A DNA stretch of 64,000 nucleotides. Source: Stappia indica (lineage in GTDB: Bacteria > Pseudomonadota > Alphaproteobacteria > Rhizobiales > Stappiaceae). Under the pieces are notes generated by a model. That model worked only from the letters and a program-made list of their open reading frames with translations. It was not told the origin of the DNA and did not search any database. How positions within the stretch are numbered: position 1 is the first letter of the stretch; each line of letters starts with the position of its first letter. Both the position numbers and the translations under genes were made by a program. The stretch spans positions 926,259 through 990,258 of the forward strand of contig NZ_JAIVMG010000001.1 in the NCBI RefSeq assembly GCF_020177335.1, read 5' to 3'. This document shows, one piece after another, positions 24,249-42,362 of this stretch.

Positions 24249-25444
24249 GCTTTTCCGCATTCATCCATGTGCAGCATCTGCTTGGCACCGGCCATGTGGT
24301 GCGTGCCGCCGCCATCGGCCGGGCGCTGGCCGCGCGCGGCGTCCGGGTCACGCTGGCCACCGGCAACACGCCGCCGCCGACACTCGACCTTGCCGGGCTG
24401 CGCACCATCGCCCTTCCGCCCGTGCGCACCGCGGACGCCCGGTTCAACCGTTTCCTGACCCCGGAAGGGGTGGAGATCGACGACGCCTGGAAGGCGGCCC
24501 GGCGCGATGCCACGCTTGCGGCCTTTACCGCTGGCGATGAGGGCCGCCCCTTCGACCTGCTCCTCACCGAAACCTGGCCCTTTGGCCGGCGCCCCTTCGC
24601 CTTCGAGATGGGGCCGCTGCTGGAGGCGGCGCGGGCCCGCCCCCGCCCGTCACTGATCGCCGCCTCGATCCGCGATATTCTCGTGCGCAAGCAGGAACTG
24701 TGGAAGGAAGAGTGGATGGCCGATCAGGCGCTCGCCTTCTACGACCGGGTTCTGGTGCATTCCGATCCGGACTTCATTCGGCTGGAAGACAGCTTCCCCT
24801 TCGCCGACCGCGTTGCTGAGTTGGTGCGCTACACCGGCTTCGTCGAGGCATTCCGACCCGCAACCGTTTCCCGTTCGGGGCATCGCCTCCCGGATGCCGA
24901 AGAGGCCGACGGCACGGACGAGGTGATCGTCTCCTGCGGCGGCGGCGCTGTCGGCGAAGCGCTGCTCGATGCGGCGCTTGACGCTCGCCCCCTGTCACGG
25001 CGGGCCGGCGATTGCCACTGGCGGCTTCTCGCCGGGCACGGCATCGCCGAGGACCGGTTCGCCGAGCTCGCCGCCCGTGCCGGCCATGGCGTCATTGTCG
25101 AGCGGGCCAGAAGCGACTTTCCCGCCCTTCTCGGGCGAGCGCGGCTCTCGGTCAGCCAGGCCGGCTACAACACGGTGCTCGATATTCTCCATGCGGGGGT
25201 TCCGGCGGTGTTCGTGCCTTTCGCCCAGATCCGCGAGACCGAGCAGCAGCAGCGCGCCGAAGCGCTCGCCCGCCATGGCCGGGCGGTGGTGACCAGCGAG
25301 ACCGGCCTGACGGCGGAGCGCCTTGCCGCCGCCGCCGACGATGCCTTGTCCCTGCCCCGCCGTCCGGTAAAGGTCCGGTTCGGCGGCGCTGAGGCCAGCG
25401 CCGACCTTCTCCTTGCTGACCTTGAGGCCATGACGCCGCGATGA
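24245..25444 (+). CDS. MurG-like glycosyltransferase, second copy in the operon
   Basis: A 399-residue GT-B enzyme related in layout to the first gene of the operon. It has 'FIHVQHLLGTGHVVRAAAIGRAL' at the N-terminus and 'SQAGYNTVLDILHAGVPAVFVPF' for donor binding near the C-terminus, with 'EQQQRAEAL' after it, as in UDP-sugar transferases of the MurG kind. Start and stop both overlap neighbours by 4 bp. The pair of MurG-like enzymes probably adds two different sugars, which is an inference. Confidence 0.82.
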   Translation: MSFSAFIHVQHLLGTGHVVRAAAIGRALAARGVRVTLATGNTPPPTLDLAGLRTIALPPVRTADARFNRFLTPEGVEIDDAWKAARRDATLAAFTAGDEGRPFDLLLTETWPFGRRPFAFEMGPLLEAARARPRPSLIAASIRDILVRKQELWKEEWMADQALAFYDRVLVHSDPDFIRLEDSFPFADRVAELVRYTGFVEAFRPATVSRSGHRLPDAEEADGTDEVIVSCGGGAVGEALLDAALDARPLSRRAGDCHWRLLAGHGIAEDRFAELAARAGHGVIVERARSDFPALLGRARLSVSQAGYNTVLDILHAGVPAVFVPFAQIRETEQQQRAEALARHGRAVVTSETGLTAERLAAAADDALSLPRRPVKVRFGGAEASADLLLADLEAMTPR

Positions 25445-26304
25445 CCGCCGCCGATCCCGACTTCCTGCTGTTTCGCGACGGCCTCACCCGCCACCTCGAC
25501 TGGTTCGCGGCACGTGGGCACAGCGTGCCGTTCTGGTGGCGCGACGATGACGCCATCGAGCCGACCCCGGCGCTCGACCGGCTGCTTGCCATCGCCAACC
25601 GCCACGGCATCGAGGTGGCGCTGGCGGTCATCCCCCGGGACGTGCAGCCGGCGCTGGCCGAAAGGCTTTCCGGCGAGACACGTGCCAGCGTGCTGCTGCA
25701 TGGCTATTGCCACCAGAATTTCCAGGACAAGGCACGCGGAGAGAAGGCCGCCGAGCTTGGCAGCCGGAGGGATCCGGACGCGGCAATTGCCGAATTGCGC
25801 GAGGGCGCGGCCCGCCTGTCCGCCCTGTTCGCAGAGCGGTTTCAGCCGGTTCTGGTGCCGCCGTGGAACCGGATCGCTCCGCAGATCGCCCGGCGCCTGC
25901 CAGAGGTGGGGGTGCGGGCGCTGTCAACCTTCACCGTGTTCCACCCCCGCGCCTTTGCCCAGGTGCAGACCCACATCGACATGATCAAGTGGAAGAAGGA
26001 CCGGCGCTTCATCGGCTGGCGCAGCGCGGCGCTCCGGTTCGATTTTCAGCTGGCGCGCCGGCGCACCAACCCGGATGAGCCGATCGGCATCCTGTCGCAC
26101 CATCTGGCGCAAACCGATGCCTCGTTCGACTTCCTCGACCGGGTGTTCGAGATTCTGGGTGAGCATCCGGGCGCCCGTTTCGCCCGGATCGGCGAGTTGA
26201 TCCCGCCCCTGCCGGCGCTGACACTGCCGCCGGGACAGCCGGCGGTTAAGCCGTCGGTCCAGACTGCTGAAAAACGGCAAGGACACGTCCGGCGTCCCGG
26301 GTAA
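25441..26304 (+). CDS. Polysaccharide deacetylase-like protein (NodB fold)
   Basis: 287 residues, last gene of the glycan operon. The metal-site motif is FWWRDDDAIEP (Asp-Asp) and the second motif is LLHGYCHQNF, with His-x3-His. NodB-type enzymes remove N- or O-acetyl groups from sugars. No signal peptide is visible, so it may act on a cytoplasmic lipid-linked intermediate. The last 15 or so codons (from base 26258) lie inside a repetitive element, so the original C-terminus has been replaced by element-encoded residues after PPGQPAVKPSV. The core domain should be unaffected. Confidence 0.85.
   Translation: MTAADPDFLLFRDGLTRHLDWFAARGHSVPFWWRDDDAIEPTPALDRLLAIANRHGIEVALAVIPRDVQPALAERLSGETRASVLLHGYCHQNFQDKARGEKAAELGSRRDPDAAIAELREGAARLSALFAERFQPVLVPPWNRIAPQIARRLPEVGVRALSTFTVFHPRAFAQVQTHIDMIKWKKDRRFIGWRSAALRFDFQLARRRTNPDEPIGILSHHLAQTDASFDFLDRVFEILGEHPGARFARIGELIPPLPALTLPPGQPAVKPSVQTAEKRQGHVRRPG
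26236..26257. repeat. Left flanking direct repeat of element copy A
   Basis: This 22-bp segment, running from CAGCC through GGTTAAGCCG to CGG, recurs at 26786-26807 with 3 differences. It lies at the 3' end of the deacetylase gene and contains an imperfect palindrome around TTAA. It is read as one copy of a duplicated target site. Confidence 0.7.
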
Positions 26305-26785
26305 GCGTCAGCGCGACCCGGGATCGAAGAGCCGGAAGGCAAGCATTCCAATGGATTGGAGCCGAACGCCGTGGCTCCCTGATCCCGATCTCCGCTACGC
26401 TGCGTCCGGGAGGACGCCGAGTGGGGGGCGATGACCGGAGCAGAGAGCCCTTGCCTCTCTTCACGGCGTCATCCCGGCCCCCGAGCCGGGATCGGGGAGC
26501 CCAAAGACCCGCGTTTTCAATCACCCCGCCCCGAAAGGCCGTGGCCCTCCGGTCCCGGATCTTCGCTTCGCTTCGTCCGGGAGGACGCCGAGTGGGGGGC
26601 GATGACCGGAGCAGAGAGCCCTTGCCTCTCTTCACGGCGTCATCCCGGCCCCCGAGCCGGGATCGGGGAGCCCAAAGACCCGCGTTTTCAATCGCCCCGC
26701 CCCGAAAGGCCGTGGCCCTCCGGTCCCGGATCTTCGCTTCGCTTCGTCCGGGAAGACGCCCCTAAAGGACCTTTGTCATCACACC
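26258..26785. mobile_element. Intergenic mobile element, copy A (non-autonomous, MITE-like) with expanded core
   Basis: A 528-bp non-coding element between convergent genes. The left end GCTGAAAAACGGC (26266) and right end AAAGGACCTTTGTCATCAC (26764-26782) correspond to the ends of the element at 42018-42289. Both ends carry a related TGAmAAA-type terminal inverted repeat. The first 110 bp of the core also matches copy B. The rest is two near-identical 171-bp units. There is no transposase; open frames inside are repeat artefacts. Confidence 0.7.
26404..26745. repeat. Two tandem 171-bp units
   Basis: The units run 26404-26574 and 26575-26745, and the next period begins again at 26746 before diverging. 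I found one difference between the units (CAATCACCCC versus CAATCGCCCC). Each unit contains the palindrome CGGCCCCCGAGCCGGGATC and the phrase GGAGGACGCCGAGTGGGG. A related but diverged unit precedes them (26308-26403). The near identity points to recent duplication. Confidence 0.9.
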
Positions 26786-26807
26786 CAGCCAGCGGCTAAG
26801 CCGCCGG
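26786..26807. repeat. Right flanking direct repeat of element copy A
   Basis: This matches 26236-26257 at 19 of 22 positions. It includes the palindrome GCGGCTAAGCCGC, whose centre is the stop codon of the leftward methyltransferase gene. Confidence 0.7.
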
Positions 26808-27386
26808 CTTCAAGAGCCGCAGGCGCCAGGTGACGTTCTTCTTGTCCGAGGTCAGGCGGTAATCGTCGAGCACCTGCCAGTCGTCACCGTCGGTGGCCTC
26901 CCACAGCCGGGCGATCAGCCGGTTGGCGCCGGACTCCAGCCGCTTGGGCGAATACATCGAAATGGCAATGACACCGCCAGGAGCCAGGAACGGCACGAAG
27001 CGCGCGACCACCGCCGCCGGATCCTCGGCGAAGTGCAACACCTCGTTGAAGACGATGGCGGAGAAGGTCTCGCCCTCGGCGGGCGCGAAGGTGTGCATGT
27101 CGCCGGCGCGCAGCGAAGCGATCTGCGGATCGACCTCGGCGATGTTCAGCGCGGCCGGGGCCAGATCGACGCCGACATAATGCTTGATGCCCATGGGCTG
27201 CAGGCGCTCGTACAACAGGCCCTCGCCGCAGCCGATGTCCAGCACGCTGTCCATCGCATCGTTCAGCGCCAGCCACATGCCGATGATGCCATAGCGTCCG
27301 CTCTCGGGCAGGTCGCGCAGGAACGCCCAGCGCCCGGCCCGGTACTCCTCGTCCCATCCGGCGGAGGTGTTCGCGTTCTTGGCCAT
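26796..27386 (-). CDS. Class I SAM-dependent methyltransferase
   Basis: About 196 residues. SAM-binding motif I is VLDIGCGEGLLYERL, motif II is VGVDLAPAAL, and motif IV is FSAIVFNEVLHF. I choose ATG 27386, which has GGAG seven bases upstream; a GTG at 27431 would add 15 residues. It is the last gene of the leftward peptide-transport operon (the permease stop is 27450) and faces the glycan operon across the repeat element. The substrate is unknown; small-molecule or sugar methylation both fit. Confidence 0.85.
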   Translation of the reverse strand: MAKNANTSAGWDEEYRAGRWAFLRDLPESGRYGIIGMWLALNDAMDSVLDIGCGEGLLYERLQPMGIKHYVGVDLAPAALNIAEVDPQIASLRAGDMHTFAPAEGETFSAIVFNEVLHFAEDPAAVVARFVPFLAPGGVIAISMYSPKRLESGANRLIARLWEATDGDDWQVLDDYRLTSDKKNVTWRLRLLKPAA

Positions 27387-27449
27387 CTGCATTCTCCGGT
27401 TGGCGTCCTGGATCTCAGCCTTGCCGGTCACGGCAACTGCTGTTTCCCG

Positions 27450-28622
27450 TCACTTATAAGGGTCCGCGGCGTCACGCAAACCGTCGCCGAGGAAATTGAA
27501 CGCCAAAACGACGATAATGATGGGGATGACCGGCGCCATCAGCCAAGGATAGACCACCACCACGGAGATATCCTGCGCCTCGTTGAGCAGCACCCCCCAG
27601 GAGACCGCCGGCCGGCGCAGGCCGAGATTGAGGTAGGACAGTGCGGTCTCGCCAAGGATCATCGCCGGGATCGACAAGGTGGCCGAGGCGATGATGTGGC
27701 TGGTGAAGCCGGGCAGAAGATGCTTGCGGATCACCCGCGAGGGCCGCGCGCCCATCAGCGTCGCCGCCTTGGCGTATTCCTCCTCGCGCAGGGCCAGAAG
27801 CTTGGAGCGCACAGCGCGGGCCAGCCCTGGCCAGTCGAGCAGACCGAGAATGACGGTGATGCCGAGATAGATCCACACCGGCGACCAGGTCACCGGCAAT
27901 GCCGCCGACAGGGCCATCCACAAGGGCAGTTCCGGCAGGGAACGCAGGATCTCGATCAGCCGCTGGATCAGGCTGTCGATGACCCCGCCGAAAAAGCCCG
28001 CGAGCCCGCCGAAGAACAGCCCCAGCACGATCGAGATGGTCACGCCGATCAAACCGACCGTGAGCGACAGGCGCGCGCCATAGACCAGCCCGGAGAACAC
28101 ATCGCGCCCGAGCCGGTCGGTACCGAGCAGGAACAGCGTGCCGCCCTCGGCCGGGCAGACCAGATGGAAACTGCCCTCGACCAGCCCCCAGAACCGGTAG
28201 TCCGGCCCCTTGCAGAAGAACCGGAGCGGCTGCACGTCGGTCCGGTCTTCCTCGAACACCCATTTCACGGTTTCAAGGTCGATGCTGGAGGTCATCCCAT
28301 AGACGAAGGGGCCGACGAACGACCCTTCGTGAAACAGCCGCAGTTGCTGCGGCGGGGCATATAGGTGATCGTTGGACCGCTCGTTCGCGGAATAGGGCGC
28401 GATCAGCTCGGCGAAGGGGACGCACAGGTAGAACAGAAGCAGGATCACGCCGGACCAGACCGCCACCTTGTGACGGCGGAACTTCCACCACATGATCTTC
28501 CACTGCGAGGCCTGATAATAGGCCTCCTGCTCCGCCGTCAGCGTCTCGGCCTGGGCCGGATCGAACGGTTCGGGATTGACGTAATGCTCCACCGGGGCGC
28601 CGGCCTCGTCCTTCACGCTCAC
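27450..28622 (-). CDS. Oligopeptide-type ABC transporter permease (OppC/YejE-like)
   Basis: A 390-residue inner-membrane permease. After a cytoplasmic N-terminus and first helix (VWSGVILLLFYLCVPFAEL) comes a long periplasmic loop of about 110 residues (from APYSANERSN to LGTDRLGRD). That loop is longer than in DppC and is typical of the YejE-like subgroup. The membrane domain has 'LGTDRLGRDVFSGLVYGARLSL' and the EAA coupling loop 'EEEYAKAATLMGARPSRVIRKHLLP'. The start codon overlaps the stop of the upstream permease (ATGA). Confidence 0.9.
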   Translation of the reverse strand: MSVKDEAGAPVEHYVNPEPFDPAQAETLTAEQEAYYQASQWKIMWWKFRRHKVAVWSGVILLLFYLCVPFAELIAPYSANERSNDHLYAPPQQLRLFHEGSFVGPFVYGMTSSIDLETVKWVFEEDRTDVQPLRFFCKGPDYRFWGLVEGSFHLVCPAEGGTLFLLGTDRLGRDVFSGLVYGARLSLTVGLIGVTISIVLGLFFGGLAGFFGGVIDSLIQRLIEILRSLPELPLWMALSAALPVTWSPVWIYLGITVILGLLDWPGLARAVRSKLLALREEEYAKAATLMGARPSRVIRKHLLPGFTSHIIASATLSIPAMILGETALSYLNLGLRRPAVSWGVLLNEAQDISVVVVYPWLMAPVIPIIIVVLAFNFLGDGLRDAADPYK

Positions 28623-29644
28623 GACGCGGCCCTCCCGCCAAGGCGAATGCGCGGGTCGAGCACCGCCAGCAGCAGGTCCGACACCAGCATGCCGATCAGG
28701 GTGAGAATGGCGACGAACAGAAGGATGAAGCCGGCCAGGAACTGATCCTGCGACTGCAGCGCGTTCAAGAGCACCGGCCCCACCGTCGGCAGGTTGAGCA
28801 CCACCGACACGATCACCGAGCCGGACACCAGCGAGGGGATCAGGTTGCCAATGTCAGCGATGAACGGGTTGAGCGCCATGCGCAGCGGGTATTTCACCAG
28901 GAGCCGGGCTTCGCGCATGCCCTTTGCCCGGGCGGTGGTCACGTATTGCCGGTGCAGTTCATCGAGCAGGTTGGCCCGCAGTCGCCGGATCATCGCCGCC
29001 GTTCCGGCGGTGCCGATGACGATGGTCGGTACGATGAGATGGGCCAGGATCGACAGCATCTTGTCGACGCTCATCGGCCGGCCGATGTACTCTGGATCCA
29101 TCAGCCCGCCGATCGACAGGCCGAACCAGCGGTTCGCCAGATAGAGCATGATCAGCCCGAGCAGGAAGTTGGGCGTCGCCAGGCCGATGTAGCCGACAAA
29201 CGTAAAGCCGTAGTCGCCCCAGGAATACTGGCGGGTGGCGGAGTAGATGCCAATCGGGAAGGAGACGACATAGACGAACAGGATGGTCGCCATGTTGAGG
29301 ATGATCGTCATCGGCAGCGTCGGCCCGATCACGTCCGCTACCGGCTTTTCATACTCGAACGACCAGCCCCAGTTGCCCTGCAACAACCCGTCGAACCCAT
29401 GCGGGCCGGGCCACAGCCCGACCCAGATCAGGTAGCGCTCCAGAAACGGCCGGTCGAGCGCGAATTCCGCCCGCAGGAACTCCAGCTTTGCCACGGACGA
29501 ACTTTCGCCCGCCGCTTTCAGGGCGGCGATCTGGTTGGAAATATAATCACCGGCCGGAAGCTCGATGATGATGAAGGTCAGGAAGCTGATCACCAGAAGC
29601 GTCGGGATCATCGTCACCACCCGGCGCAGGATGTAGTAGAGCAT
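28619..29644 (-). CDS. Oligopeptide-type ABC transporter permease (OppB-like)
   Basis: A 341-residue inner-membrane permease. The start 'MLYYILRRVVTMIPTLLVISFLTF' and the EAA loop 'YVTTARAKGMREARLLVKYPLRMALNPF' identify the DppB/OppB family. ATG 29644 has AAGGA upstream; a TTG one codon earlier is not needed. A periplasmic loop with many charged residues (GESSSVAKLEFLRAEFALDRP) follows helix 1. It pairs with the next gene to form the channel. Confidence 0.9.
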   Translation of the reverse strand: MLYYILRRVVTMIPTLLVISFLTFIIIELPAGDYISNQIAALKAAGESSSVAKLEFLRAEFALDRPFLERYLIWVGLWPGPHGFDGLLQGNWGWSFEYEKPVADVIGPTLPMTIILNMATILFVYVVSFPIGIYSATRQYSWGDYGFTFVGYIGLATPNFLLGLIMLYLANRWFGLSIGGLMDPEYIGRPMSVDKMLSILAHLIVPTIVIGTAGTAAMIRRLRANLLDELHRQYVTTARAKGMREARLLVKYPLRMALNPFIADIGNLIPSLVSGSVIVSVVLNLPTVGPVLLNALQSQDQFLAGFILLFVAILTLIGMLVSDLLLAVLDPRIRLGGRAAS

Positions 29645-29745
29645 CAACCCGTCCTTGTTTCCCTCGGGACCGCCGTCCCGGCGAATGCGTCGTCGTTGTC
29701 GTCAAATCGCGGACATCGGAAGCGCGGCAGGCCGCGCCGCCAAGC

Positions 29746-31659
29746 CTATTTCACAAAGAATTCGTCCATGCGGTGAATGCCGAAATGGGCACCAGGATCC
29801 CAGCCGTAGATCCCCTCCTTCGGCACATTGCCCAGCCCCTTGACCACCACCGGCTGGCGCACCTCGGCGACAAGGCCGATGTGGATGGTCTCATCGGCAT
29901 GGATCTGCAGGATTTCCTGCCAGATCGCGGCACGCTCCTGCGGCGAGGCGGAGACCAGCCAGCGGTCGTAGAGCTCGACCAGCCGTGCGGCGGGCGCCCA
30001 GTCTGGCTTCTCGCCGGTCTTGCCCTCGGTTTCGTAGTAATCGCCCCACAGGGACCAGGAGAGGAAATCGCCGCGCACCGGAACGAAATCCTCCGGTGGC
30101 ATTTCCGAGGTCGGAATGCCGTTCTCAAAGCCGCTCCAGACCGACATGACCAGGAAACCGCTCAGCGCCCGCTCGCGCATGGTGTCGCGCTGGCTTGGCT
30201 TGGCGAACAGCTTGACGCCGATCTCCTTCCAGGTCTCGCCCACCAGTTCCAGCGCATCGAGCTGTTCCTGGCTTTCGCCACTGGCCTCGACGATGATTTC
30301 CAGCGGCCGGCCATCGGGCAAAAGGCGGGTGCCGTCGCCGCGCCGCTCGGTCAGCCCCATCTCGTCCAGCAGCGCATTCGCCGCCGCAAGGTCGAACTCG
30401 GCGTAGGCGTCGCGGTATTCCGGCTTGAACAGCGGGCTGCGCGACAGAACGGTGTCGTTGCCCGGCGTGCCGAAGCCGAGATAGAGCGCCCGGTTGATCA
30501 TCTGCCGGTCGATGCCGAGCGACAGAGCGCGGCGGAAGCGGGTGTCGCGCAGGGTCTTGCGCCAGACCGGATCCTTCACCGTCAGGTTGGGCAGCAGGGA
30601 GATTTCCGAGCCCTTGCTGATCGGCCAGAGCAGGGTCTTGTAGTCGCCGGTCTTCTCGCCCTGCTTGAGGATGGTGATGTCGGAAAAGCCGATATTGCGG
30701 GCCTGAAGATCGACCTCGCCCGCCTGGGTCTTGGCCGGGATGATCTTGCCGTCGGCCACGGTCATCACCACCCGGTCCGCATAGGGAAGCTGCTGCCCGG
30801 CGGTGTCGACCCGGTGGTAATAGGGATTGCGCTCCAGCACGAAGCGCCGCTCGCCGGCATCCTCGAACCGCACCCAGGGCTGCAGCGTCGGCAGATCCGG
30901 ATTGCGGGCATTGTACATGTCGTCTTGCTTGTTGAAGAGCGGCGCCCAGCCGCGCAGCTTGCGTACCGCTGCCTGTTTCTTGATCTCCGCCTCATCGGCG
31001 TATTTGGCATGGAACTGCTTCAGGTAATGCGCGGGGCGATAGATGAACGGCGGGCGCGACTTGGCCAGTTCCGGCTGGAACAGCGGATTGGGCGTGTCCC
31101 AGGTAAAGCGCACCGTGGTTTCGTCGAGCACCTCGAATAGCGGCGGTTCGCCCCCCGCCAGCATGAATGGTGGCAGACCGGAGGGTTGCAGTTCCGGGTT
31201 CAGCGCCACATCCTCATACCAGAAGCGGATGTCCTCGGAGGTGAACGGCGCGCCATCCGACCACTTGTGCCCCTCGCGCAGGTGCAAGGTGAACCTGCGG
31301 CCCTCCTCCACCTCGAAATCCTTGAGGATGTCCGGGACCAGATTGAGCTCCTCGTCATAGCCAACGAGGCGGGCATAGCCCCAGACATTGATCAGCCGCA
31401 CGTCCTTGGAGCGACCGATCAACGTATCGATATCGCCGCCCTGCTGGCCCGTGACCCGGCCCTTGGCCTCCAGGTCGACCACCAGAGGCTCGCTCGGCAG
31501 GCGCTCGCCCACCGGCGGCAGGTCCTTGCCGACCCGCGCCTCCAGCATGGGCGTCTCCTTGAGATCGAGCGCCAGCGCCGGCGACAGAGCGAAGCCTGCC
31601 CCGAAGGCAAGCGCAGCCCCGACAAGGGCGCCGGCGGAAAGAGGAAAACGGCAGCTCAT
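29746..31659 (-). CDS. Large periplasmic binding protein of the peptide transporter (SBP family 5)
   Basis: About 637 residues, longer than DppA and close to YejA size. The signal peptide is '[30 protein letters not shown]', cut before LDLKET. A strong GGGAGG-type ribosome site lies 6-8 bp before ATG 31659, which overlaps the ATPase stop codon (ATGA). Landmarks are 'HLREGHKWSDGAPFTSEDIRFWYEDV', 'FRRALSLGIDRQMINRALYLG' and the C-terminal 'YGWDPGAHFGIHRMDEFFVK'. A 98-bp gap with a small GC hairpin (29722-29737) separates it from the permeases. Size suggests long or modified peptides, but this is not proven. Confidence 0.88.
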   Translation of the reverse strand: MSCRFPLSAGALVGAALAFGAGFALSPALALDLKETPMLEARVGKDLPPVGERLPSEPLVVDLEAKGRVTGQQGGDIDTLIGRSKDVRLINVWGYARLVGYDEELNLVPDILKDFEVEEGRRFTLHLREGHKWSDGAPFTSEDIRFWYEDVALNPELQPSGLPPFMLAGGEPPLFEVLDETTVRFTWDTPNPLFQPELAKSRPPFIYRPAHYLKQFHAKYADEAEIKKQAAVRKLRGWAPLFNKQDDMYNARNPDLPTLQPWVRFEDAGERRFVLERNPYYHRVDTAGQQLPYADRVVMTVADGKIIPAKTQAGEVDLQARNIGFSDITILKQGEKTGDYKTLLWPISKGSEISLLPNLTVKDPVWRKTLRDTRFRRALSLGIDRQMINRALYLGFGTPGNDTVLSRSPLFKPEYRDAYAEFDLAAANALLDEMGLTERRGDGTRLLPDGRPLEIIVEASGESQEQLDALELVGETWKEIGVKLFAKPSQRDTMRERALSGFLVMSVWSGFENGIPTSEMPPEDFVPVRGDFLSWSLWGDYYETEGKTGEKPDWAPAARLVELYDRWLVSASPQERAAIWQEILQIHADETIHIGLVAEVRQPVVVKGLGNVPKEGIYGWDPGAHFGIHRMDEFFVK

Positions 31660-33545
31660 AGAATAGCCTCCCTGGCCGGCTCGGGCCGTGTAGCGGATGC
31701 GCCGGGCGCGCAGACGAAATGACCGGGCTTCATTTCGACGAGCACCGGCGCGGTGCCGTCGGTCAGGCGGAACGGTTCGGGCCACAACGACGGCTCGGAT
31801 GCGCGCTGCTCGTCGAGCGCGGCAAAGTCGAGCGGCGCGTCAAGATCCGGCTCGGGCACCGAGCGCAGCAGCGCGCGGGTGTAGGGATGCAGCGGCTCCT
31901 CGACCACGCTTCGGGTTTCCCCGATCTCCACCACGCGCCCCCGACACATCACCGCAACCCGGTCGGCGATATAGTCGACGACCGCCAGATTGTGACTGAC
32001 GAACAGATACGTCAACCCCAGTTCCGACTTCAGGTCCTTGAGAAGGTTCAGGATTTGCGCCTGAACCGACACATCGAGCGCCGAGGTCGGCTCGTCGCAC
32101 AGAATGAACTCCGGATTGAGCGCCAGCGCCCTTGCGATGCCGATGCGCTGACGCTGGCCGCCGGAGAAGGAATGCGGATAGCGGCGCAGGAAACGCGGGT
32201 CGAGCCCGACCAGCCGCATCAGCTCGCGCACCCGTTCGGCCCGCTCCGCCGGCGTTCCCACCTCATGGATGATCAGCGGCTCCAGCAGGATATCGTTGAC
32301 GGTCATGCGCGGGTTCAGCGAGGAGAACGGATCCTGGAAGATCAGTTGCACCCGCTTGCGATAGTCGAGCAACGCCGGCCCGGACAGCCCGGCCACATCC
32401 ATCGGCCCGGCGCCGGTATCGTAGTGAATCGTGCCGCCGTCAATGTCGATCGCCCGCAGGATCGCCTTGGCCGTGGTGGTCTTGCCCGACCCGGATTCCC
32501 CGACGAGCCCCAGGCATTCGCCCCGCCGCACGGTCAGGTTGATGTCGTCCAGCGCCAGAAGCTCATGCGCGCCTCCGCCGAACAAGCCGCTCTTGCGGGT
32601 CAGGAAGGTCTTGCTGACATGTTCGAGGCGCACCAGCGGCGCCCCCTTGGCCACCCCGTTCGACCGCCCCCCTGCCAGAAACCCTTCCGCATGGGGCTCG
32701 ATCGGGCGGATCGGCACCAGCCGTTCCCCCGGTTCCATGCCGATGCGCGGCACCGCGTTGAGCAGCGCCTTCAGATAGGCATGTTGCGGATTGGCGAACA
32801 GGGCGCTTGCCGCACCCTTTTCCATGATCCGGCCATGGTAGATCACCACCACCTCGTCCGCCATATTGGCGACGACACCGAAATCATGGGTGATCAGCAG
32901 CACGGACATGCTGAGTTCGCTCTGCACGTCCTTGATCAGCTTGAGGATTTCCGCCTGGATCGTGACATCAAGCGCGGTTGTCGGCTCGTCGGCGATCAGC
33001 AGCGCCGGATGACAGATCATCGCCATGGCGATCATCGCCCGCTGCCGTAACCCGCCCGACAGCTCGAACGGATAGGAATTCAGCGCCCGGGCGGGATCTG
33101 GAAAACGGACCAGCCGCAGCATGTCCCGGGTCAGTTCGCGCGCCTCGGCCGCGTTGACGCCGCGATGCAGCTCGGCCGCCTCGCCGATCTGGTCACCGAT
33201 GGTGTGCAGCGGCGACAGGGAGGTCATCGGTTCCTGGAAGATGATGGCGATGCGGTTGCCGCGAATGGCCCGCATCTCCTCTCCCTTGCGGTTCAGCGCG
33301 GCAATGTCCACCGCGGTACCGCCGGCCATGTCGTTGAACAACAATCGGCCGCCGGTGATTTCCGCCTTCTCCGGCAGCAATCCCATGATGGCCTGGGAAA
33401 TCACCGTCTTGCCCGAACCGGATTCGCCGACCAGCGCCACCGTCCTGTTCTCGGGAACGGAGAACGACACGTTGTCGACCGCGCGGGCACGCCCCTCACT
33501 CGTCACAAAGTCGACGCTCAGGCCGTCGACCGTCAGCACATCCAC
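31656..33545 (-). CDS. Dual ATPase of the oligopeptide ABC transporter (DppD-DppF fusion, YejF-like)
   Basis: About 629 residues with two complete ATPase domains in one chain. Domain 1: Walker [10 protein letters not shown], signature [12 protein letters not shown], Walker [13 protein letters not shown]. Domain 2: Walker [10 protein letters not shown], signature [12 protein letters not shown], Walker [13 protein letters not shown]. Each is followed by the oligopeptide-type C-terminal extension ('[15 protein letters not shown]'). I place the start at GTG 33545, which lies 9 bp after GGGGAGG; GTG 33554 abuts it. It is the first gene of the operon ATPase - binding protein - permease - permease - methyltransferase. 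Confidence 0.9.
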
Positions 33546-33724
33546 GTAAACCACCCTCCCCGGCGAATTTTCCGGCCATTATAGGTGTCGCCGCACCAAT
33601 CGAAAGGCCCCATGCCCGTCCAGACAGTGCGCAGGGCAGATCACACTTCCATGTCTTGCAGTTGACAGCGCCCTTGCCAAGTACGGTCTTTCAACAAGGT
33701 GTCAAAAACCTGCACGGCATCGGG

Positions 33725-33759
33725 AAAAAACTGGCCGGATCCGGAAGAGCAGCGGCCAG
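33725..33759 (-). terminator. Intrinsic terminator after the second adenylate cyclase gene
   Basis: On the minus strand CTGGCCG pairs with CGGCCAG around a 15-base loop and is followed by TTTTTT. It lies 15 bp past the cyclase stop codon and separates it from the peptide-transport operon. Confidence 0.75.
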
Positions 33760-33773
33760 ATCGGGAACAACAC

Positions 33774-35675: not shown

Positions 35676-35836
35676 GCTTGACCGATTACCCTTCGCTCGC
35701 CGTTGCCACTGCGGGTAGCATACTCCGGTTTTCAGTCCAAACGTGATTCACCGAGGCGCCCCCTCCTCCCGGCTGTACTCAATCCCCGCGAGCGGTTAAG
35801 CAGCCATGACGAGCATGCCCTGCCGCCGGAGCCACA

Positions 35837-36670
35837 ATGACCGTGATCGACTACGAAGCAGAATACAACAACCGGGCTCTGGTGCCCGAGCATCCGTCGC
35901 TGATCGAGGGCTGGCGCCGGGATGCGGCCGCCTACCGCAATGAAGCGAACGCGGAACTGGATATTTCCTACGAGCTTTCGCCGCGCGCCGCCTATGACCT
36001 GTTCCTGCCCGCTGGCGGACTGCCGTCACGAGGCGTCATCGCCCTGTTCCTGCATGGCGGCTACTGGCAGGCGCTCGACCGCAGCTTCTTCTCGCACATG
36101 GCGCGCGGGCCGGTGGCTCATGGCATTCCCACGGTGATCGGCAACTACGACTTGTGCCCGGATGTACGTATCGGCGACATCACCGAGGAAATCCGCCGGC
36201 TGATCGCCCATCTGTGGGACCGCTACCGCAAGCCGGTCGTCGTCTATGGCCATTCGGCTGGCGGTCACCTTACCGCCGAGATGCTGGCCACAGACTGGCG
36301 CCAGCGCGGTCTGCCGCCGCGCCTCGTGCCCGCCGGCCTTGCCATATCTGGCCTGTTCGACCTTCAGCCGCTGGTGAGCACATCGCTCAACACCAATCTC
36401 CGGCTCGACCGGCAGGAAGCCATCGCCGCCTCGCCGATTGCCCGGATCGCACCGGCCGGCACGGCCCTGATCGCGGCGGTGGGCGGCGATGAATCCTCCG
36501 AATTCCTGCGGCAATCGCGGATCATCGCCGACATCTGGGGACGCGGCGGCGTCGACACCACACTCGACATTCGCCCGGGAGAGAACCATTTCACCGTGAT
36601 CGCCCCGCTGGCCGATCCAGACAGCGACCTGACCGCCGCGCTGGTGGCCCAGGCCCGGAAGATCTGCTGA
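35837..36670 (+). CDS. Alpha/beta hydrolase, kynurenine formamidase/arylformamidase-like
   Basis: 277 residues. The oxyanion motif is FLHGGYWQALDRS, the nucleophile elbow is YGHSAGGHLT and the C-terminal His is in GENHFTVIAPL. The N-terminal 'EYNNRALVPEHPSLIEGW' is characteristic of bacterial alpha/beta hydrolases annotated as kynurenine formamidase-like or carboxylesterase. GGAG lies seven bases before the ATG. No tryptophan-breakdown gene is adjacent, so the formamidase role is not supported by context. Confidence 0.82.
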   Translation: MTVIDYEAEYNNRALVPEHPSLIEGWRRDAAAYRNEANAELDISYELSPRAAYDLFLPAGGLPSRGVIALFLHGGYWQALDRSFFSHMARGPVAHGIPTVIGNYDLCPDVRIGDITEEIRRLIAHLWDRYRKPVVVYGHSAGGHLTAEMLATDWRQRGLPPRLVPAGLAISGLFDLQPLVSTSLNTNLRLDRQEAIAASPIARIAPAGTALIAAVGGDESSEFLRQSRIIADIWGRGGVDTTLDIRPGENHFTVIAPLADPDSDLTAALVAQARKIC

Positions 36671-36813
36671 ACGCCCCCCAATTCCCCGCCGCAAAATATG
36701 ACACCGGTCAATGCACCGCCCCGTCCTCGCCGACATCGTGGTGGTCAAGCCATTGCCAAGCGGGCGCCCCGGACCTTCCGGGCTTGCCCTGCCGCCGAAA
36801 CAAGGAGCCCTTG

Positions 36814-39459
36814 ATGCGTCCCGACACCCCCGCACCGGTTCGCCTGGAAGATTACCGACCGACGGATTTCGCGATCGACACCGTGTCTCTGGACATTCGC
36901 CTCGCCCCGAAGGCGACCCAGGTGCGCGCGCGTCTTGCCATCCGGCGCCGTGACACCGCCGCGCAAGGCACCCCGCTGGTACTCGACGGCGACGAACTCG
37001 ATCTTGTCAGCCTGGCGCTCGACGGCCGTCCGCTCGCCGCTGACGAGTACACCGCCGCGCCGGACCGGCTGGAGATCCGGGCGCTGCCCGAAGGCCCCTT
37101 CGTGCTGGAGATCGAGACCCGGCTCGATCCGGATGCCAACACCAAGCTGATGGGGCTTTACCGCTCAAGCGGCACCTATTGCACCCAGTGCGAGGCCGAA
37201 GGCTTTCGCCGTATCACCTATTTCCTCGACCGGCCCGACTGCCTGTCGGTCTACACCACCCGCATCGAAGCGCGCGAAAGCGACGCCCCGGTGCTCCTGG
37301 GCAATGGCAATCCGGTGGAGGCTGGACGGATCGAGGGCACGGATCGCCACTATGCGGTCTGGCACGACCCGCACCCCAAACCCGCCTATCTGTTCGCCAT
37401 GGTCGCCGGCGACCTTGCCCGGGTCTCCGACCGCTTCACCACCGCCGACGGGCGCGATGTCGCGCTCAACATCTACGTGGAACACGGCAACGAAGGCGCC
37501 TGCGACTGGGCGATGGACAGCCTCAAGCGCTCCATGCGCTGGGATGAAGAGGTCTTCGGGCGGATCTACGATCTAGAGGTGTTCAACATCGTCGCCGTTT
37601 CCGACTTCAACATGGGCGCGATGGAGAACAAGGGGCTGAACATCTTCAACGACAAGTATGTTCTCGCCAGCCCGGACACTGCCACCGATCAGGATTACGC
37701 CGGCATCGAGGCGGTGATCGCCCATGAGTATTTCCACAACTGGACCGGCAACCGGATCACCTGCCGCGACTGGTTCCAGCTTTGCCTGAAGGAGGGGCTG
37801 ACCGTCTTCCGCGATCAGGAATTCTCTTCCGACATGCGCTCGCGCCCGGTCAAGCGCATCGCCGATGTGCGGCTGTTGAAGTCGCATCAGTTCCCCGAGG
37901 ACGCCGGCCCCCTCGCCCATCCGGTGCGCCCGCGGCTCTATCACGAGATCAACAACTTCTACACCGCCACCGTATATGAGAAGGGCGCCGAGGTGGTGCG
38001 GATGCTGAAGGCTCTTCTGGGGCCGGAGGACTTTCGCGCCGGCATGGACCTGTTCTTCGACCGGCATGACGGTGAAGCCACCACCGTGGAAGCGTTTCTC
38101 GCCTGTTTCCAGGAGGCGAGCGGCCGCGATCTTGCCCAGTTTTCCCTGTGGTACGAGCAGGCCGGTACGCCGACCCTGACGGTTGACAGCAAGTACGAGC
38201 CCGAGGCCCGGCGCTTCACCATGACGGTGCGCCAGAGCGTTCCGCCGACCCCGAAGCAATCGGCCAAGAAGCCGATGACGATCCCGCTCAAGGCAGCGCT
38301 GATCGGCCCGGACGGGACGGAGATGACCGGTTTGAGCGTCGCCGGCGCGGAAATGACCGGCGACACCCTGCACATTCGCAACCCGTCGCACATGATCGTC
38401 TTTTCCGACGTGCCGGCCCGTCCGGTGCCGTCGTTGCTGCGCGAGTTTTCCGCGCCCGTGCACCTGAAATCGGATCTGTCCGACGCGGACCTTCTGTTCC
38501 TCGCGGCCCGGGACACCGACCCGTTCAACCGCTGGCAGGCGTTGCAGTCGGTGGCGCTCAGTGCGCTGATCAAAGCGACCCAGGCCGCCGCCAGCCAACG
38601 GCCGATCACGGTCGATCCGGCGCTGGTGGAGGCGTTCGGCGCCAACATCGCCGATGACAGCCTCGATCCGGCCTTCCGCGCGCTCTGCCTGCAGTTACCT
38701 GGCGAAACGGACCTTGCCCGCGAAATCGGCAAGGACGTCGATCCGGAGGCGATCTGTCAGGCACGGCGACAGGTGCGGGCAACCATCGCCGACGCACTGG
38801 CCGAGACCATGCTGGCCACCTACACCGCCATGACCAGCCCCGGACCGTTCTCCCCCGATGCGGCGGCGAGCGGGCGCCGCGCCCTGCGCAACGTGCTGCT
38901 GGAGTATCTCGGCCATGGAACAGGCGGGCAGGATGGCACCTTGGCACAGGCCCATTTCGATGCTGCCGACAACATGACGGACCGGGCGGCGGCGCTCGGG
39001 GTTCTCGTCCACGCCCGGCTGCCCGGACATGAGGAGGCGCTTGCCGCATTCGCGGACCGGCATGCAGGCACGCCGCTGGCCCTAGACAAGTGGTTCACCA
39101 TCCAGGCCACCGCCCCCTTTGGCGATGCGCTGGAAACGGTGAAGCGGCTGACCGCCCACCCCGGCTTCTCGATGGGCAATCCGAACCGGGTTCGGGCTCT
39201 GATCGGCGCCTTCGCCACCGGCAACCAGAGCCAGTTCAACCAGGCCGATGGCGCCGGCTTCGACTATCTGGCCGAGGTTGTGCTTGGCCTCGACAAGACC
39301 AATCCGCAGGTGGCCGCGCGTCTTGCGTCGGCGTTCCGTTCCTGGCGGGCGCTCGAACCGGAACGGCAGGCCCGGGCGGAGGCGGCGCTGCGCCATGTGG
39401 CCGCCACCGGCGAGCTGTCGCCGGATGTGCGCGACATCGTCGACCGTTGCTTGCAATAG
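36814..39459 (+). CDS. pepN: Aminopeptidase N (M1 zinc metallopeptidase)
   Basis: An 881-residue cytoplasmic exopeptidase that trims N-terminal residues from peptides. The substrate-anchoring motif GAMEN is at 268-272. The zinc site is H304-EYF-H308 with third ligand E327 (LKEGLTVF). The start MRPDTPAPVRLEDYRPTDF and full length match the proteobacterial PepN type with a long helical C-terminal domain. ATG 36814 is preceded by AAGGAG; the upstream ATG at 36784 is out of the conserved region. A strong terminator follows. Confidence 0.95.
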   Translation: MRPDTPAPVRLEDYRPTDFAIDTVSLDIRLAPKATQVRARLAIRRRDTAAQGTPLVLDGDELDLVSLALDGRPLAADEYTAAPDRLEIRALPEGPFVLEIETRLDPDANTKLMGLYRSSGTYCTQCEAEGFRRITYFLDRPDCLSVYTTRIEARESDAPVLLGNGNPVEAGRIEGTDRHYAVWHDPHPKPAYLFAMVAGDLARVSDRFTTADGRDVALNIYVEHGNEGACDWAMDSLKRSMRWDEEVFGRIYDLEVFNIVAVSDFNMGAMENKGLNIFNDKYVLASPDTATDQDYAGIEAVIAHEYFHNWTGNRITCRDWFQLCLKEGLTVFRDQEFSSDMRSRPVKRIADVRLLKSHQFPEDAGPLAHPVRPRLYHEINNFYTATVYEKGAEVVRMLKALLGPEDFRAGMDLFFDRHDGEATTVEAFLACFQEASGRDLAQFSLWYEQAGTPTLTVDSKYEPEARRFTMTVRQSVPPTPKQSAKKPMTIPLKAALIGPDGTEMTGLSVAGAEMTGDTLHIRNPSHMIVFSDVPARPVPSLLREFSAPVHLKSDLSDADLLFLAARDTDPFNRWQALQSVALSALIKATQAAASQRPITVDPALVEAFGANIADDSLDPAFRALCLQLPGETDLAREIGKDVDPEAICQARRQVRATIADALAETMLATYTAMTSPGPFSPDAAASGRRALRNVLLEYLGHGTGGQDGTLAQAHFDAADNMTDRAAALGVLVHARLPGHEEALAAFADRHAGTPLALDKWFTIQATAPFGDALETVKRLTAHPGFSMGNPNRVRALIGAFATGNQSQFNQADGAGFDYLAEVVLGLDKTNPQVAARLASAFRSWRALEPERQARAEAALRHVAATGELSPDVRDIVDRCLQ

Positions 39460-39486
39460 GCCTGACGAACTCAATTTGACGCTGCG

Positions 39487-39536
39487 TCCCGCCGGATTTT
39501 GCGCCGATGCGCAAAGCCCGGCGGGATTTACTTTTG
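39487..39536 (+). terminator. Intrinsic terminator of pepN
   Basis: TCCCGCCGG plus TTTTGCGC pairs with GCGCAAA plus CCGGCGGGA, with a small mismatch, and is followed by TTTACTTTTG. It begins 28 bp after the pepN stop. Confidence 0.85.
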
Positions 39537-39537
39537 A

Positions 39538-39545
39538 TTAACCAT
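39538..39545 (+). promoter_or_regulatory. Possible CtrA half-site (TTAACCAT) before the PAS kinase gene
   Basis: The octamer TTAACCAT is the known half-site recognised by the cell-cycle regulator CtrA in alphaproteobacteria. It sits in an AT-rich gap, about 125 bp upstream of a PleC-like kinase gene. No second half at the usual 7-bp spacing is present, so this is only suggestive. Confidence 0.3.
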
Positions 39546-39669
39546 ATTTTTCCTGAGAGACTCTAGACAAATCAGACGAATACGATTCAAATGAAATTGA
39601 TTCGAGGGCGCCTCGCGCTCACCTTTGCGGCTAATTTGCGGCTTAATCGACACATCGGGAGCTACCACG

Positions 39670-42009
39670 ATGGCGCGCGCCTTTGTCGGCACTGCGTCCG
39701 CGCGTCGATTCGCGGACTTGATCCGGAAACACCGGAACAGTAAGTCGCTGACCGGCCACATCCGCTTGCTGGCCCAGCCAGCCTATCAGCGCCTGTTACT
39801 CGCCGAACCGATCTTCCGCCGCACCATTCCGATCCTGTGCGTCGTCTTCGTGGCCACCCTTGCCGTCTATCGCGCGCTCATCCTGTCCTATGAGCATCAG
39901 GAGACCGACCGGCGCGCGCAGGACGACCTGACGATGATCGCCACCACCCTGGCCGCCCGTCTCAGCCTGTCCGAAACCGCCCTGCCCGAACAGGGCTTCC
40001 GCACCGCGCTTCAGGCAGAGCTCGCCGACAGCCTGCCACCGCGCGCCACCAGCGACGCACGCCAGATCCTGGTCGCCGATCCGGATGGCAAGGTGGTTGC
40101 CAGCGCACCGATCCGCACCGATTGGGAAGGAATGCTTCTCGCCGACATTCTCGGCGCCGGGCAGCCGCTGACCGTCTTCGGTGCCCGCGCCGGCGTACTG
40201 ACGATTGCTGCCGACACCGACGAGGAGGCCTATGCCACCGTCCACCACCTGAACGGCCGGCTCGGCATGGTGGCGCTGACCCAGCCCAAGGACATGATCT
40301 TCGCCGACTGGCGCGCCAGCGTCTCGGCCAATGTCACCTTGTTTGTCGGCACCGCCTCGGTGCTGCTGGTGCTAATCTACGCCTTCTTCGCCCAGGCAAC
40401 GCGGGCCGAACAGGCGGACCAGATTTACGCCGCGACCCGGGCGCGCATCGACCTGGCGCTGAGCCGGGGGCGCTGCGGCCTGTTCGACTGGGATCTGTCG
40501 CGCGGCCGCATCTTCTGGTCGGCCTCGCTCTATGAAATGCTGGGCATGCCCGCGCGGGACGATATTCTCGGGTTTGCCGAGATTTCCGCCCTCACCCACC
40601 CGGACGACGTCGATCTCTACAAGCTGGCGGAAAGCCTGCTGGAGACCGGCGAGACCACCGTCGACCAGATGTTCCGCATGCGCCATGCCAATGGCGAATG
40701 GGTCTGGCTCAGGGCCCGGGCGGAGGTGCAGAGCGAGCCGGGGATTTCCGAGCCGCACCTGATCGGCATCTGCATCGACGTCACCGAGCAGAAGCAGCTC
40801 GCCGAGCAGAGCCGCACCGCGGACCTGCGCCTGCGCGATGCGATCGAGACGATTTCCGAGGCCTTCGTTCTGTGGGACACGGAAAACCGGCTAGTGATGT
40901 GCAACTCCAACTACCAGACCCTGCACAACCTGCCAAACGCGGCGATCCGGGCTGGAACGCCCTATGCGCAGGTCATGGCCTCCGCCCGCCAGACGGTGGT
41001 GTCGGCAAGCCCGACCATCGGCAGCGACGGCAGCGATCCCTCCTCCAGCTACGAGGCTCAGCTTGCCGACGGGCGCTGGCTGCAGATTTCCGAACGGCGC
41101 ACCAAGGACGGCGGTTTCGTCTCCGTCGGCACCGACATCACCGCCCTGAAGCGGCATGAGGAAAAGCTGATGGAGAGCGAACGCCGGCTGATGGCCACGG
41201 TCGCGGACCTCCGCCAGTCGCGGCAGAAACTTGAGGTTCAGGCGCAGCAACTGGTCGAGCTTGCCGAGAAATACTCCGAGGAGAAGACCAAGGCCGAGGA
41301 GGCCAATCAGGCCAAGTCCGAATTCCTCGCCAACATCTCACACGAACTGCGCACGCCGCTGAACGCCATCATCGGCTTTTCCGAGATCATGGATCAGGGC
41401 ATGTTCGGCCCGCTCGGCTCCGACAAGTATCGGGAATACTGCACCGACATTCACGACAGTGGCCGCTACCTGCTGAATGTGATCAACGACATTCTCGACA
41501 TGTCGAAGATCGAGGCCGGGCGCATGGAGCTGAAGCGCGAAGAGGTCGACCTCGTCAGCATCGCCGCCGATGCCACCCGTATCATCTCCGCCGCCGCTGC
41601 GGAAAAGACCATCACCGTGGAGCGTCAGACAGAGGACAACCTCGCCCTTGTCGGCGACCGCCGGGCGATCAAGCAGGTGCTGTTGAACCTGCTCGCCAAT
41701 GCGGTGAAATTCACCCCCGATGGCGGCTCGGTCACCCTCGATGCCCGCCGGGATACCGACGGCAAGGCGGTTACCGTCACCATCTCCGACAATGGCATCG
41801 GCATCCGCCAGACCGACATCGCCCGGCTCGCCAAGCCGTTTGTCCAGGTCGAGAACCAGTTCACCAAGACCCACAAGGGCTCGGGCCTCGGCCTTGCCAT
41901 CGCCCAGTCTCTGGTGAAGATGCATGGCGGCGACATGGTCATCCAGTCGGAAGTGGGCAAGGGCACCCGCGTGACCGTGTCCCTGCCGGTCCACCCGCAG
42001 GACGCCTGA
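39670..42009 (+). CDS. PAS-domain sensor histidine kinase, PleC/DivJ-like
   Basis: 779 residues. Helices at about 52-72 and 221-241 bracket a 150-residue periplasmic region. Two PAS domains follow (about 262-375 and 390-495), then a coiled coil (500-545). The phospho-accepting His558 is in NISHELRTPLNAIIGFSEIM. The segment 'GMFGPLGSDKYREYCTDIHDSG' is typical of the PleC/DivJ/PdhS group that controls cell-cycle phosphorelay. The ATPase domain has NLLANAVKFTPDGG, ISDNGIGI and HKGSGLGLAIAQSL. GGGAG lies eight bases before ATG 39670. The stop codon lies within a 23-bp direct repeat at the edge of an inserted element. Partner DivK or CtrA-pathway genes are not nearby. Confidence 0.88.
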   Translation: MARAFVGTASARRFADLIRKHRNSKSLTGHIRLLAQPAYQRLLLAEPIFRRTIPILCVVFVATLAVYRALILSYEHQETDRRAQDDLTMIATTLAARLSLSETALPEQGFRTALQAELADSLPPRATSDARQILVADPDGKVVASAPIRTDWEGMLLADILGAGQPLTVFGARAGVLTIAADTDEEAYATVHHLNGRLGMVALTQPKDMIFADWRASVSANVTLFVGTASVLLVLIYAFFAQATRAEQADQIYAATRARIDLALSRGRCGLFDWDLSRGRIFWSASLYEMLGMPARDDILGFAEISALTHPDDVDLYKLAESLLETGETTVDQMFRMRHANGEWVWLRARAEVQSEPGISEPHLIGICIDVTEQKQLAEQSRTADLRLRDAIETISEAFVLWDTENRLVMCNSNYQTLHNLPNAAIRAGTPYAQVMASARQTVVSASPTIGSDGSDPSSSYEAQLADGRWLQISERRTKDGGFVSVGTDITALKRHEEKLMESERRLMATVADLRQSRQKLEVQAQQLVELAEKYSEEKTKAEEANQAKSEFLANISHELRTPLNAIIGFSEIMDQGMFGPLGSDKYREYCTDIHDSGRYLLNVINDILDMSKIEAGRMELKREEVDLVSIAADATRIISAAAAEKTITVERQTEDNLALVGDRRAIKQVLLNLLANAVKFTPDGGSVTLDARRDTDGKAVTVTISDNGIGIRQTDIARLAKPFVQVENQFTKTHKGSGLGLAIAQSLVKMHGGDMVIQSEVGKGTRVTVSLPVHPQDA

Positions 42010-42017
42010 GGCGTCCC
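41995..42017. repeat. Left flanking direct repeat of element copy B
   Basis: This 23-bp segment contains the palindrome GGACGCC-TGA-GGCGTCC, whose centre is the kinase stop codon. It recurs exactly at 42290-42312, and the identity extends 3 bp further left (CAC). Confidence 0.85.
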
Positions 42018-42289
42018 CAAACAGCTGACAAAAGGCTACGGCACTTTCCGCGTCATTCCGGGCAAGCCTCAAGCGCGACCCAGGATCGGAGAGCCAGAAG
42101 ACTGGCATTTCCAATAGACTGGAACCGAAAGGCCGTGCCTCCCCGATCCCGGCTCGGGGGCCGGGAGGACGCCGAGGCGCGGGGCAACGACTTCCACCAT
42201 ACGCAGGAGCTCCGTCATCCCCGATCCCCGCATGATAGACGAGTTCACCGCAATGAGTTGATGACGCACTGAAAGGGCTTTGTCATCAC
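42018..42289. mobile_element. Intergenic mobile element, copy B (non-autonomous, MITE-like)
   Basis: A 272-bp non-coding insertion between the convergent kinase and glnE genes. The left end GCTGACAAAAGGC (42024) and right end AAAGGGCTTTGTCATCAC carry an imperfect terminal inverted repeat (TGACAAA). The core has long similarity to 26308-26403 and shares GGAGGACGCCGAG with the tandem units of copy A. It is flanked by an exact 23-bp direct repeat. No protein is encoded. Confidence 0.75.
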
Positions 42290-42312
42290 CCGCAGGACGC
42301 CTGAGGCGTCCC
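42290..42312. repeat. Right flanking direct repeat of element copy B
   Basis: An exact copy of 41995-42017, including a second copy of the kinase stop codon and its surrounding palindrome, 50 bp before the glnE stop. Confidence 0.85.
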
Positions 42313-42362
42313 GCCGCGCGTCCTGCCAATCAGCCGCACTTCCAGTCCAGCCAGTCGCTGGT

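Follow-up and report, generated by a model that had tools for sequence, protein, structure and literature searches.

What process could leave a complete palindrome on both sides of a short DNA element, and do so at two unrelated sites? This question is raised by loci A and B, which lie in a 64,000-nucleotide stretch of Stappia indica DNA (the window; positions 926259-990258 of contig C1 in the 4.66-Mb, 40-contig draft genome G000), and at both of which an element is found between convergent genes and between direct repeats particular to that locus. We consider it very likely that A and B belong to a single family of elements resembling miniature inverted-repeat transposable elements (MITEs), with an IS1182-type left end, moved in trans by a transposase that probably chooses its target by hairpin shape and joins the element at the hairpin's feet. 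Two observations carry this reading, i.e., both loci are insertions with a duplication when compared with an empty site, and an autonomous insertion sequence (IS) that shares the left end makes hairpin-length duplications, with their length following the hairpin.

Element A (26260..26785, plus strand, 526 bp) lies between a 22-bp left palindrome copy (CAGCCGGCGGTTAAGCCGTCGG; 26236..26257) and a right copy (CAGCCAGCGGCTAAGCCGCCGG; 26786..26807), and element B (42018..42289, plus strand, 272 bp) lies between a 23-bp left copy (CCGCAGGACGCCTGAGGCGTCCC; 41995..42017) and an identical right copy (42290..42312). Read directly, the flanks of A match at 19 of 22 positions and differ at 3, and those of B are identical over 23 bp, or over 26 bp when the preceding CAC is counted. 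In sequence, the flanks of A have no relation to those of B, and each contains a palindrome at a stop codon: the right copy at A holds the TAG (26796-26798) of a minus-strand methyltransferase gene, and the left copy at B holds the TGA (42007-42009) of a plus-strand histidine kinase gene. An earlier reading of this DNA, which we call the initial annotation, had described these locus-specific repeats and their palindromes at stop codons, and both descriptions hold; its end for element A at 26785 also stands, whereas the start it gave, 26258, is moved by the terminal repeat to 26260 (CAGACTGCTG).

The genes neighbouring A and B are present in all 14 genomes of the genus, the window's own genome included, and a sister genome (G013) that is 94-96% identical in these genes contains neither element. 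At the position of B, this genome has one palindrome (CCGCAGGACGCCTGAGGCGTCC) in the context ...CACCCGCAGGACGCCTGAGGCGTCCGGCCGCGCG (L078), and at the position of A it has one palindrome (CAACCGGCGGTTAATCCGCCGG) in the context ...GGGACAACCGGCGGTTAATCCGCCGGCTTCAAG (L108), where both convergent genes end within the palindrome, with their stop codons overlapping in TTAA. Insertion with target-site duplication, which the initial annotation had proposed from the repeats, is therefore what the comparison with the empty sites demonstrates, with more empty sites found for other copies of the family. Near its end, the gene to the left of A differs in frame between the two genomes: in the sister genome it stops inside the palindrome, and in the window its frame crosses the left palindrome copy, with the last codons and the stop inside element A. 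In the other 12 genomes of the genus, no element was found at A within the 330 bp inspected; at B, several of these genomes have a different downstream gene. In one of the genomes of the genus (G003), an apparent related repeat core is present downstream at B.

An IS1182-family insertion sequence with hairpin-length duplications

A scan of 61 genomes (the window's own and 60 relatives) with the NF033551 profile gave matches above the cut-off in 4 of them. One of these is an IS locus (L057) in Rhizobium ecuadorense (G059, of the same order as S. indica; NZ_LFIO01001065.1), which encodes a protein of 461 aa that scores 478.1 bits against a cut-off of 270 and contains the Pfam domains DDE_Tnp_1_6 and DUF772, and which is thus a member of the IS1182 family by sequence. 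Its ends are CAGACTGCTGACAAACCC and CAGACCGCTGACAAACCC, and an exact copy of the palindrome AAGCCGGGCAAAGCCCGGCTT adjoins it on each side. Elements A and B have no transposase gene, since at 526 and 272 bp both are too short for a 461-aa enzyme.

With the protein of this IS as query, species genomes yielded 532 relatives, from which we kept 80 loci and examined 54; the 26 others were excluded by a hand-made list, all of them short (<4.2 kb) and ending at or near the IS, with about ten other short loci kept. Both IS ends (≤5 mismatches of 15) are present in 51 of the 54 loci, with the consensus CAGACTGCTGACAAACCC across these 51 copies, and 50 copies are testable, one having too little flank. 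These copies are chiefly alphaproteobacterial, and several come from one genome, for example that of Mesorhizobium sophorae, at different loci. Duplications of 17-28 bp flank 40 of the 50 testable copies (score ≥12), a score reached by 3 of 761 mismatched left-right pairs; the two copies match exactly in 39 of these duplications and at all but 2 positions in the remaining one, and no two of the 40 share a sequence. A stem score of at least 7 is found in 36 of the 40 duplications, versus 0.5% of shuffles. The stem starts no more than 2 nt from the start of the duplication in 40 of 40 cases and ends no more than 3 nt from its end in 38 of 40, and the length of the duplication is correlated with the span of the hairpin (0.76), which runs from 15 to 27 bp save for one of 9. 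In addition, 38 of the 40 duplicated targets are preceded by an A tract or followed by a T tract, counted as ≥4 such bases among the adjoining 8. The palindromic target described in the initial annotation is refined in two respects: it is a hairpin located at the 3′ end of a gene, in the case of the autonomous IS usually with A/T tracts at its borders, and its duplication is as long as the hairpin and not of fixed length.

Where no duplication is present, 9 of the 10 IS copies still have a stem no more than 1 nt from both ends (weak at L218 and L229), mostly with unlike stems on the two sides; unlike hairpins would be what recombination between IS copies leaves behind. An R. ecuadorense copy adjoins leuD (a gene named by eye from its protein) and has one hairpin duplicated on both sides, and in a 98% identical genome (G082) this hairpin is single and is followed by the same T tract. 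We searched 40 genomes of that genus for this site, its own included, and read 30 loci, with 10 matching genomes outside this reading; an IS end after the hairpin is absent from all 28 lines printed for other genomes, and one further locus gave no line.

Insertion sequences with CAGACTGCTGACAAA ends are found in the same genus as the window, in genome G005, and in many alphaproteobacteria. G005 alone of the 14 genomes of the genus has a protein of the L057 type; it lies at the start of a contig, with 89% identity over 153 aa, and other contigs start with more pieces of the transposase. The two such ends inspected (L294 and L303) abut a hairpin; two other genomes of the genus (G007 and G010) have weak matches to this protein only. 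G005 also contains two shortened IS copies (L297 and L298) that lack the middle of the transposase gene and have end-like sequences on both sides, i.e., they are non-autonomous derivatives; in each, the hairpins on the two sides are unlike one another, and the pair is similar in both copies. Over 15 bp, the left-end consensus of the element family is identical to the IS1182-type end. The window's own genome contains three sites that differ from CAGACTGCTGACAAA by at most one base, and all three are element left ends, with A among them. Because the left end matches the IS, and because IS copies mostly lie between complete palindromes, the enzyme of this IS is likely to have moved A and B. The two features of a MITE that concern its partner are thus present in different measure: terminal repeats are shared with the autonomous IS at the left end and partly at the right, and duplications of the kind made by the partner IS flank 12 of 15 end-complete element copies, next to 40 of 50 IS copies. 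A transposase with matching terminal repeats, supplied elsewhere, had been predicted in the initial annotation, and this is borne out by the IS of G005 and other alphaproteobacteria; the right end matches only partly, and no such IS was found in the window's own draft genome.

Hairpin duplication does not seem to extend to every IS1182-type element. In a second subgroup from the same bacterial family (L059 and L060), the ends are TATTCCGTTGAAAAACTC, and no duplicated hairpin is present in the flanks by eye. The idea that the whole IS1182 family duplicates hairpins is therefore not supported, and the duplication seems to be a trait of a subgroup. The ends of two further loci (L058 and L063) were not found.

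The element family and its flanking repeats

The ends shared by A and B, noted in the initial annotation, recur across the genome, with at least 48 matches in a BLAST search with A and at least 69 with B. The family is probably larger than we counted, because 40 of 91 and 40 of 95 candidates were scored for the two queries; 51 copies were read, many of them degenerate, with one locus on contig C21 (L004, L012) not among them. The left ends have the consensus CAGACTGCTGACAAAGGG, with CAGACTGCTGACAAAGGGCAA in 27 copies, and the right ends have the consensus GAGTGTGATGACAAAG, with ...CTTTGTCATCACACTC in 26 copies; as ends were recognized with up to 8 mismatches of 21, some of these 27 left and 26 right ends are probably chance matches.

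Most end-complete copies are flanked on both sides by a locus-specific palindrome, and the two flank copies are identical or nearly so within a locus only. For example, the pairs are GGCCCGCTTGAGCGGGCCTT and GGCCCGCTTGCGCGGGCCTT at L030, ACCCCGTCGCCGGTTTCCGGCGGCGGGGT and ACCCCGTCGCCGGCCTCCGGCGGCGGGGT at L038, and CGGCGCGCCATCGGGCGCGCCG and CGGCGCGCCATCAGGCGCGCCG at L051. Of the 15 end-complete copies (both ends with ≤8 mismatches), 12 reach a flanking-repeat score of at least 10, two of them with exactly 10. Mismatched left-right pairs reach this score in 3 of 210 cases, and positions drawn at random from the window in 14 of 1000, which argues that these flanking repeats are not due to chance; at a score of at least 12 the counts are 9 of 15 and 1 of 210. 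The two copies in the window score 14.5 and 26.

Eighteen stretches of the sister genome were taken by synteny, and in these both flanks were located for 22 of the 51 copies and not for the remaining 29. The element is absent (gap <70 bp) at 16 of the 22, so the insertion polymorphism of a MITE is seen in the family as well as at A and B. A duplication predicts that the two flanks overlap in the empty site, and such an overlap is present at 7 of the 16: A, B, L019, L020, L022, L047 and L051. By the boundaries set by our script, the overlap is only 9 bp at L019 and 3 bp at L022; the duplicated stretch at L022 reads 26/26. The insertion at L030 is common to both species, and there the hairpin pair of the sister genome is identical over 20 bp.

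Folding of 14 left/right palindrome pairs had a mixed outcome. The differences between the two copies are confined to unpaired positions at L030, L038 and L051, and differences within the stem occur at A (3 of 3 differences), L020, L034, L036, L040 and L045, so we make no claim of purifying selection on the stems. At L047 (contig C10), one hairpin copy has a two-sided stem change that keeps the pairing, when compared with the other copy and with the empty site in the sister genome.

By rough gene calls, the genes on either side are convergent for 28 of the 51 copies, co-directional for 19 and divergent for 1, with 3 copies called intragenic; adjacent gene pairs in the same stretches, element-bearing ones included, are convergent in 62 of 303 cases and divergent in 53 of 303. 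The convergent setting proposed in the initial annotation thus applies to A and B; the family as a whole is located at gene 3′ ends more generally, not at convergent pairs alone. One of the element copies has matches in 32 of the 61 genomes (L236-L243 among them). Most of the matches listed outside the genus cover the core only (about positions 31-168 of 202), with the ends absent, which suggests a more widespread alphaproteobacterial repeat that was captured between IS-type ends.

Detailed examination of the window places the left terminal repeat of A at 26260-26274 (CAGACTGCTGAAAAA, 1 mismatch against the IS1182-type end) and its right terminal repeat at 26770-26785 (reverse complement GGTGTGATGACAAAGG). 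Element A is longer than most copies of the family owing to a tandem array (26368..26760; 171-bp unit, 2.3 copies, 95% matches), and it is plausible, as the initial annotation suggested, that the insertion is older than this inner array. The left terminal repeat of B lies at 42018-42032 (CAAACAGCTGACAAA, 2 mismatches against the IS1182-type end), and its right end, up to 42289, reads ...CTTTGTCATCAC. Locus A is bordered by a plus-strand gene on the left (25441..26304, 287 aa, no Pfam or NCBIfam match) and by the minus-strand gene for a methyltransferase-domain protein on the right (26796..27431, 211 aa). Locus B is bordered by the plus-strand gene for a PAS-domain sensor histidine kinase (39625..42009, 794 aa), whose TGA is the centre of the duplicated palindrome, and by the minus-strand glnE gene for glutamine synthetase adenylyltransferase (42363..45347, 994 aa). 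Four open reading frames of 101-129 aa that overlap A have no Pfam match. An Rfam search of 26200-42320 at the gathering threshold matched no family, and on this basis a structured RNA at A or B was rejected.

Target choice and rival explanations

The observations above are consistent with a short series of steps. An IS1182-type transposase, from a relative or from a copy since lost, would mobilize elements of the A/B type in trans, and would pick its target by hairpin shape. The target may be extruded as a hairpin or cruciform during the reaction, with joining at the two 5′ feet of the hairpin followed by gap repair, and the whole hairpin would thereby be copied to each side of the element. 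If joining occurs at the feet, the length of the duplication follows that of the hairpin, and both genes keep one. With a complete hairpin on each side, neither gene would lose its 3′ end or terminator, and the element would be shielded from read-through. A T tract is absent from the palindromes of A and B, and for this reason it seems to be shape rather than termination that is read; the palindrome at L020 (GGTCATCTGACC) is also without a T tract.

Several points weigh against this reading. The consensus for the element ends is drawn from ends that were picked with a pattern read off the elements themselves, and the right-end consensus is only partly like the IS end. For 36 of the 51 copies no recognizable end is present on at least one side, which places them outside the flanking-repeat test; within that test, 3 of the 15 end-complete copies (L024, L026 and L034) fall below the threshold, and at a looser limit of 10 mismatches 15 of 40 pass, with L019 among them as an artefact of misplaced ends. 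In the sister genome, 9 of the 16 empty sites show no overlap of flanks, and 6 of the 22 locatable sites contain 89-1310 bp of other sequence of its own. As for the IS, 4 of its 40 duplications have a stem score below 7 and 10 of its 50 copies have no duplication. Finally, the search of the window's own genome for an IS1182 transposase gene found none: the best NF033551 match there is a 22.8-bit fragment, and the protein of L057 has no match; this genome is a draft of 40 contigs, and it is often at contig ends that IS copies go missing.

An alternative to the choice of hairpin shape is that the transposase is drawn to transcription termination, i.e., to a paused RNA polymerase or to A/T tracts, and that hairpins are duplicated as they lie there. 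The tracts at 38 of the 40 duplicated IS targets and the location of the elements mostly at gene 3′ ends agree with this, but termination alone would not set duplications that start and end with the stem and track its length; in addition, terminator scans gave no hit at the palindromes of either locus A or locus B, the only hit (in the scan of locus A) lying inside element A versus 0.8 expected, and the palindromes of A and B (at stop codons) and of L020 are without a T tract. We therefore consider this explanation unlikely. We think it quite improbable that the elements were moved by another enzyme family with long duplications, such as IS1634-like transposases, which are known to make them: the right end is indeed only partly like that of IS1182, and the own genome has yielded no such transposase gene, but at the left the consensus and the IS1182-type end are the same over 15 bp, elements and IS alike abut the hairpin, and the same unusual duplication is found in both.

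A third possibility concerns the form of the target, in that the transposase could act as a symmetric dimer on double-stranded inverted repeats, with the stagger set by the half-sites and with no extrusion. A symmetric target and a variable stagger would yield the same products, and extruded and linear DNA are indistinguishable by sequence; we nevertheless find this doubtful, as 40 different duplications and hairpin spans of 15 to 27 bp (one of 9) are hard for a rigid dimer, and a stem-loop is also invoked in the published IS1272 model (PMC5678879). It would also be conceivable that there was no insertion, with the palindrome pairs being independent terminators of convergent genes that are alike by chance or selection, and with an old repeat between them. 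Unlike pairs do occur, since the 10 IS copies without a duplication mostly have unlike hairpins on their two sides. However, copies are alike only within a locus, and both sites in the sister genome have a single palindrome and no element; this explanation is very improbable in general, and for A and B we rejected it on the evidence of the empty sites.

Beyond A and B, choice of target by hairpin shape leads us to a broader proposal that we hold with less assurance, although we still lean towards it: that this lineage of DDE transposases measures its target by shape, with each insertion copying a hairpin whole, whatever its length or sequence, and leaving the element and its neighbours fenced off from each other, and that non-autonomous derivatives spread this outcome, turning single bidirectional terminators into separated pairs. 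Target-site duplications are normally of a fixed length that is set by the enzyme, and ISfinder reportedly lists long duplications for IS1182. A duplication whose length tracks the hairpin suggests that a DDE transposase is guided by structure when it chooses a target, and the copies described here offer many natural sites for testing this. The outcome of such an insertion would be unusually benign, in that the split hairpin is rebuilt on both sides, and the elements may gather at gene 3′ ends for this reason. Paired hairpins with CAGACTGCTGACAAA ends serve as a marker for finding more insertions of this kind, and among the paired terminators of alphaproteobacteria some may be traces that such insertions left.

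Comparison with known systems

The REP/BIME, ERIC and RPE-type repeats are short, intergenic, high-copy and rich in palindromes, and in these respects the family resembles them. Unlike these repeats, it has terminal repeats, empty sites and a matching IS, and it has no Rfam match; because these terminal repeats, empty sites and IS were found, we regard the family as a transposon derivative.

Targeting of palindromes and MITEs derived from IS1182 are both known already. Targeting of palindromic sequences has been attributed to some IS1182 members (Siguier et al., as cited in PMC5678879), and a survey of insertion sequences includes IS1182 in a list of ten families whose copies are over-represented where genes converge (PMC9208149). 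In Methanosarcina acetivorans, MITEs of 160 and 169 bp have been assigned to the IS1182-family partner ISMac2, going by the table of PMC3852290. Both there and here, short non-autonomous elements have an IS1182-family partner; the direct repeats of the archaeal elements, as read from that table, are 4 and 0 bp, whereas here the whole hairpin is duplicated. In the literature we searched, by titles and the starts of abstracts and with ISfinder, TnPedia and most subscription papers outside the search, no hairpin-length duplication was found reported for an IS1182-type IS or MITE, either for this subgroup or for its MITE family, save for a model in PMC5678879.

This model concerns IS1272, an IS1182-family relative that chooses a stem-loop by its structure and not by its sequence, and deletes it (PMC5678879). 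The target stem-loop of IS1272 is lost with no duplication, whereas here the hairpin is kept and duplicated: replacement of a stem-loop is not what we observe at A, at B or at 40 of the 50 IS copies, all of which have the palindrome on both sides. The legend to the model figure (Fig 13) gives a hypothetical alternative, path (b), in which the stem-loop would be duplicated in full through joining at its 5′ feet (PMC5678879). Our data fit path (b) as that legend sets it out, with a duplication that corresponds to the stem-loop from foot to foot, and A, B and their partner IS would thus provide natural examples of a hairpin-duplicating path that, in the literature searched here, has so far only been drawn as an alternative for IS1272.

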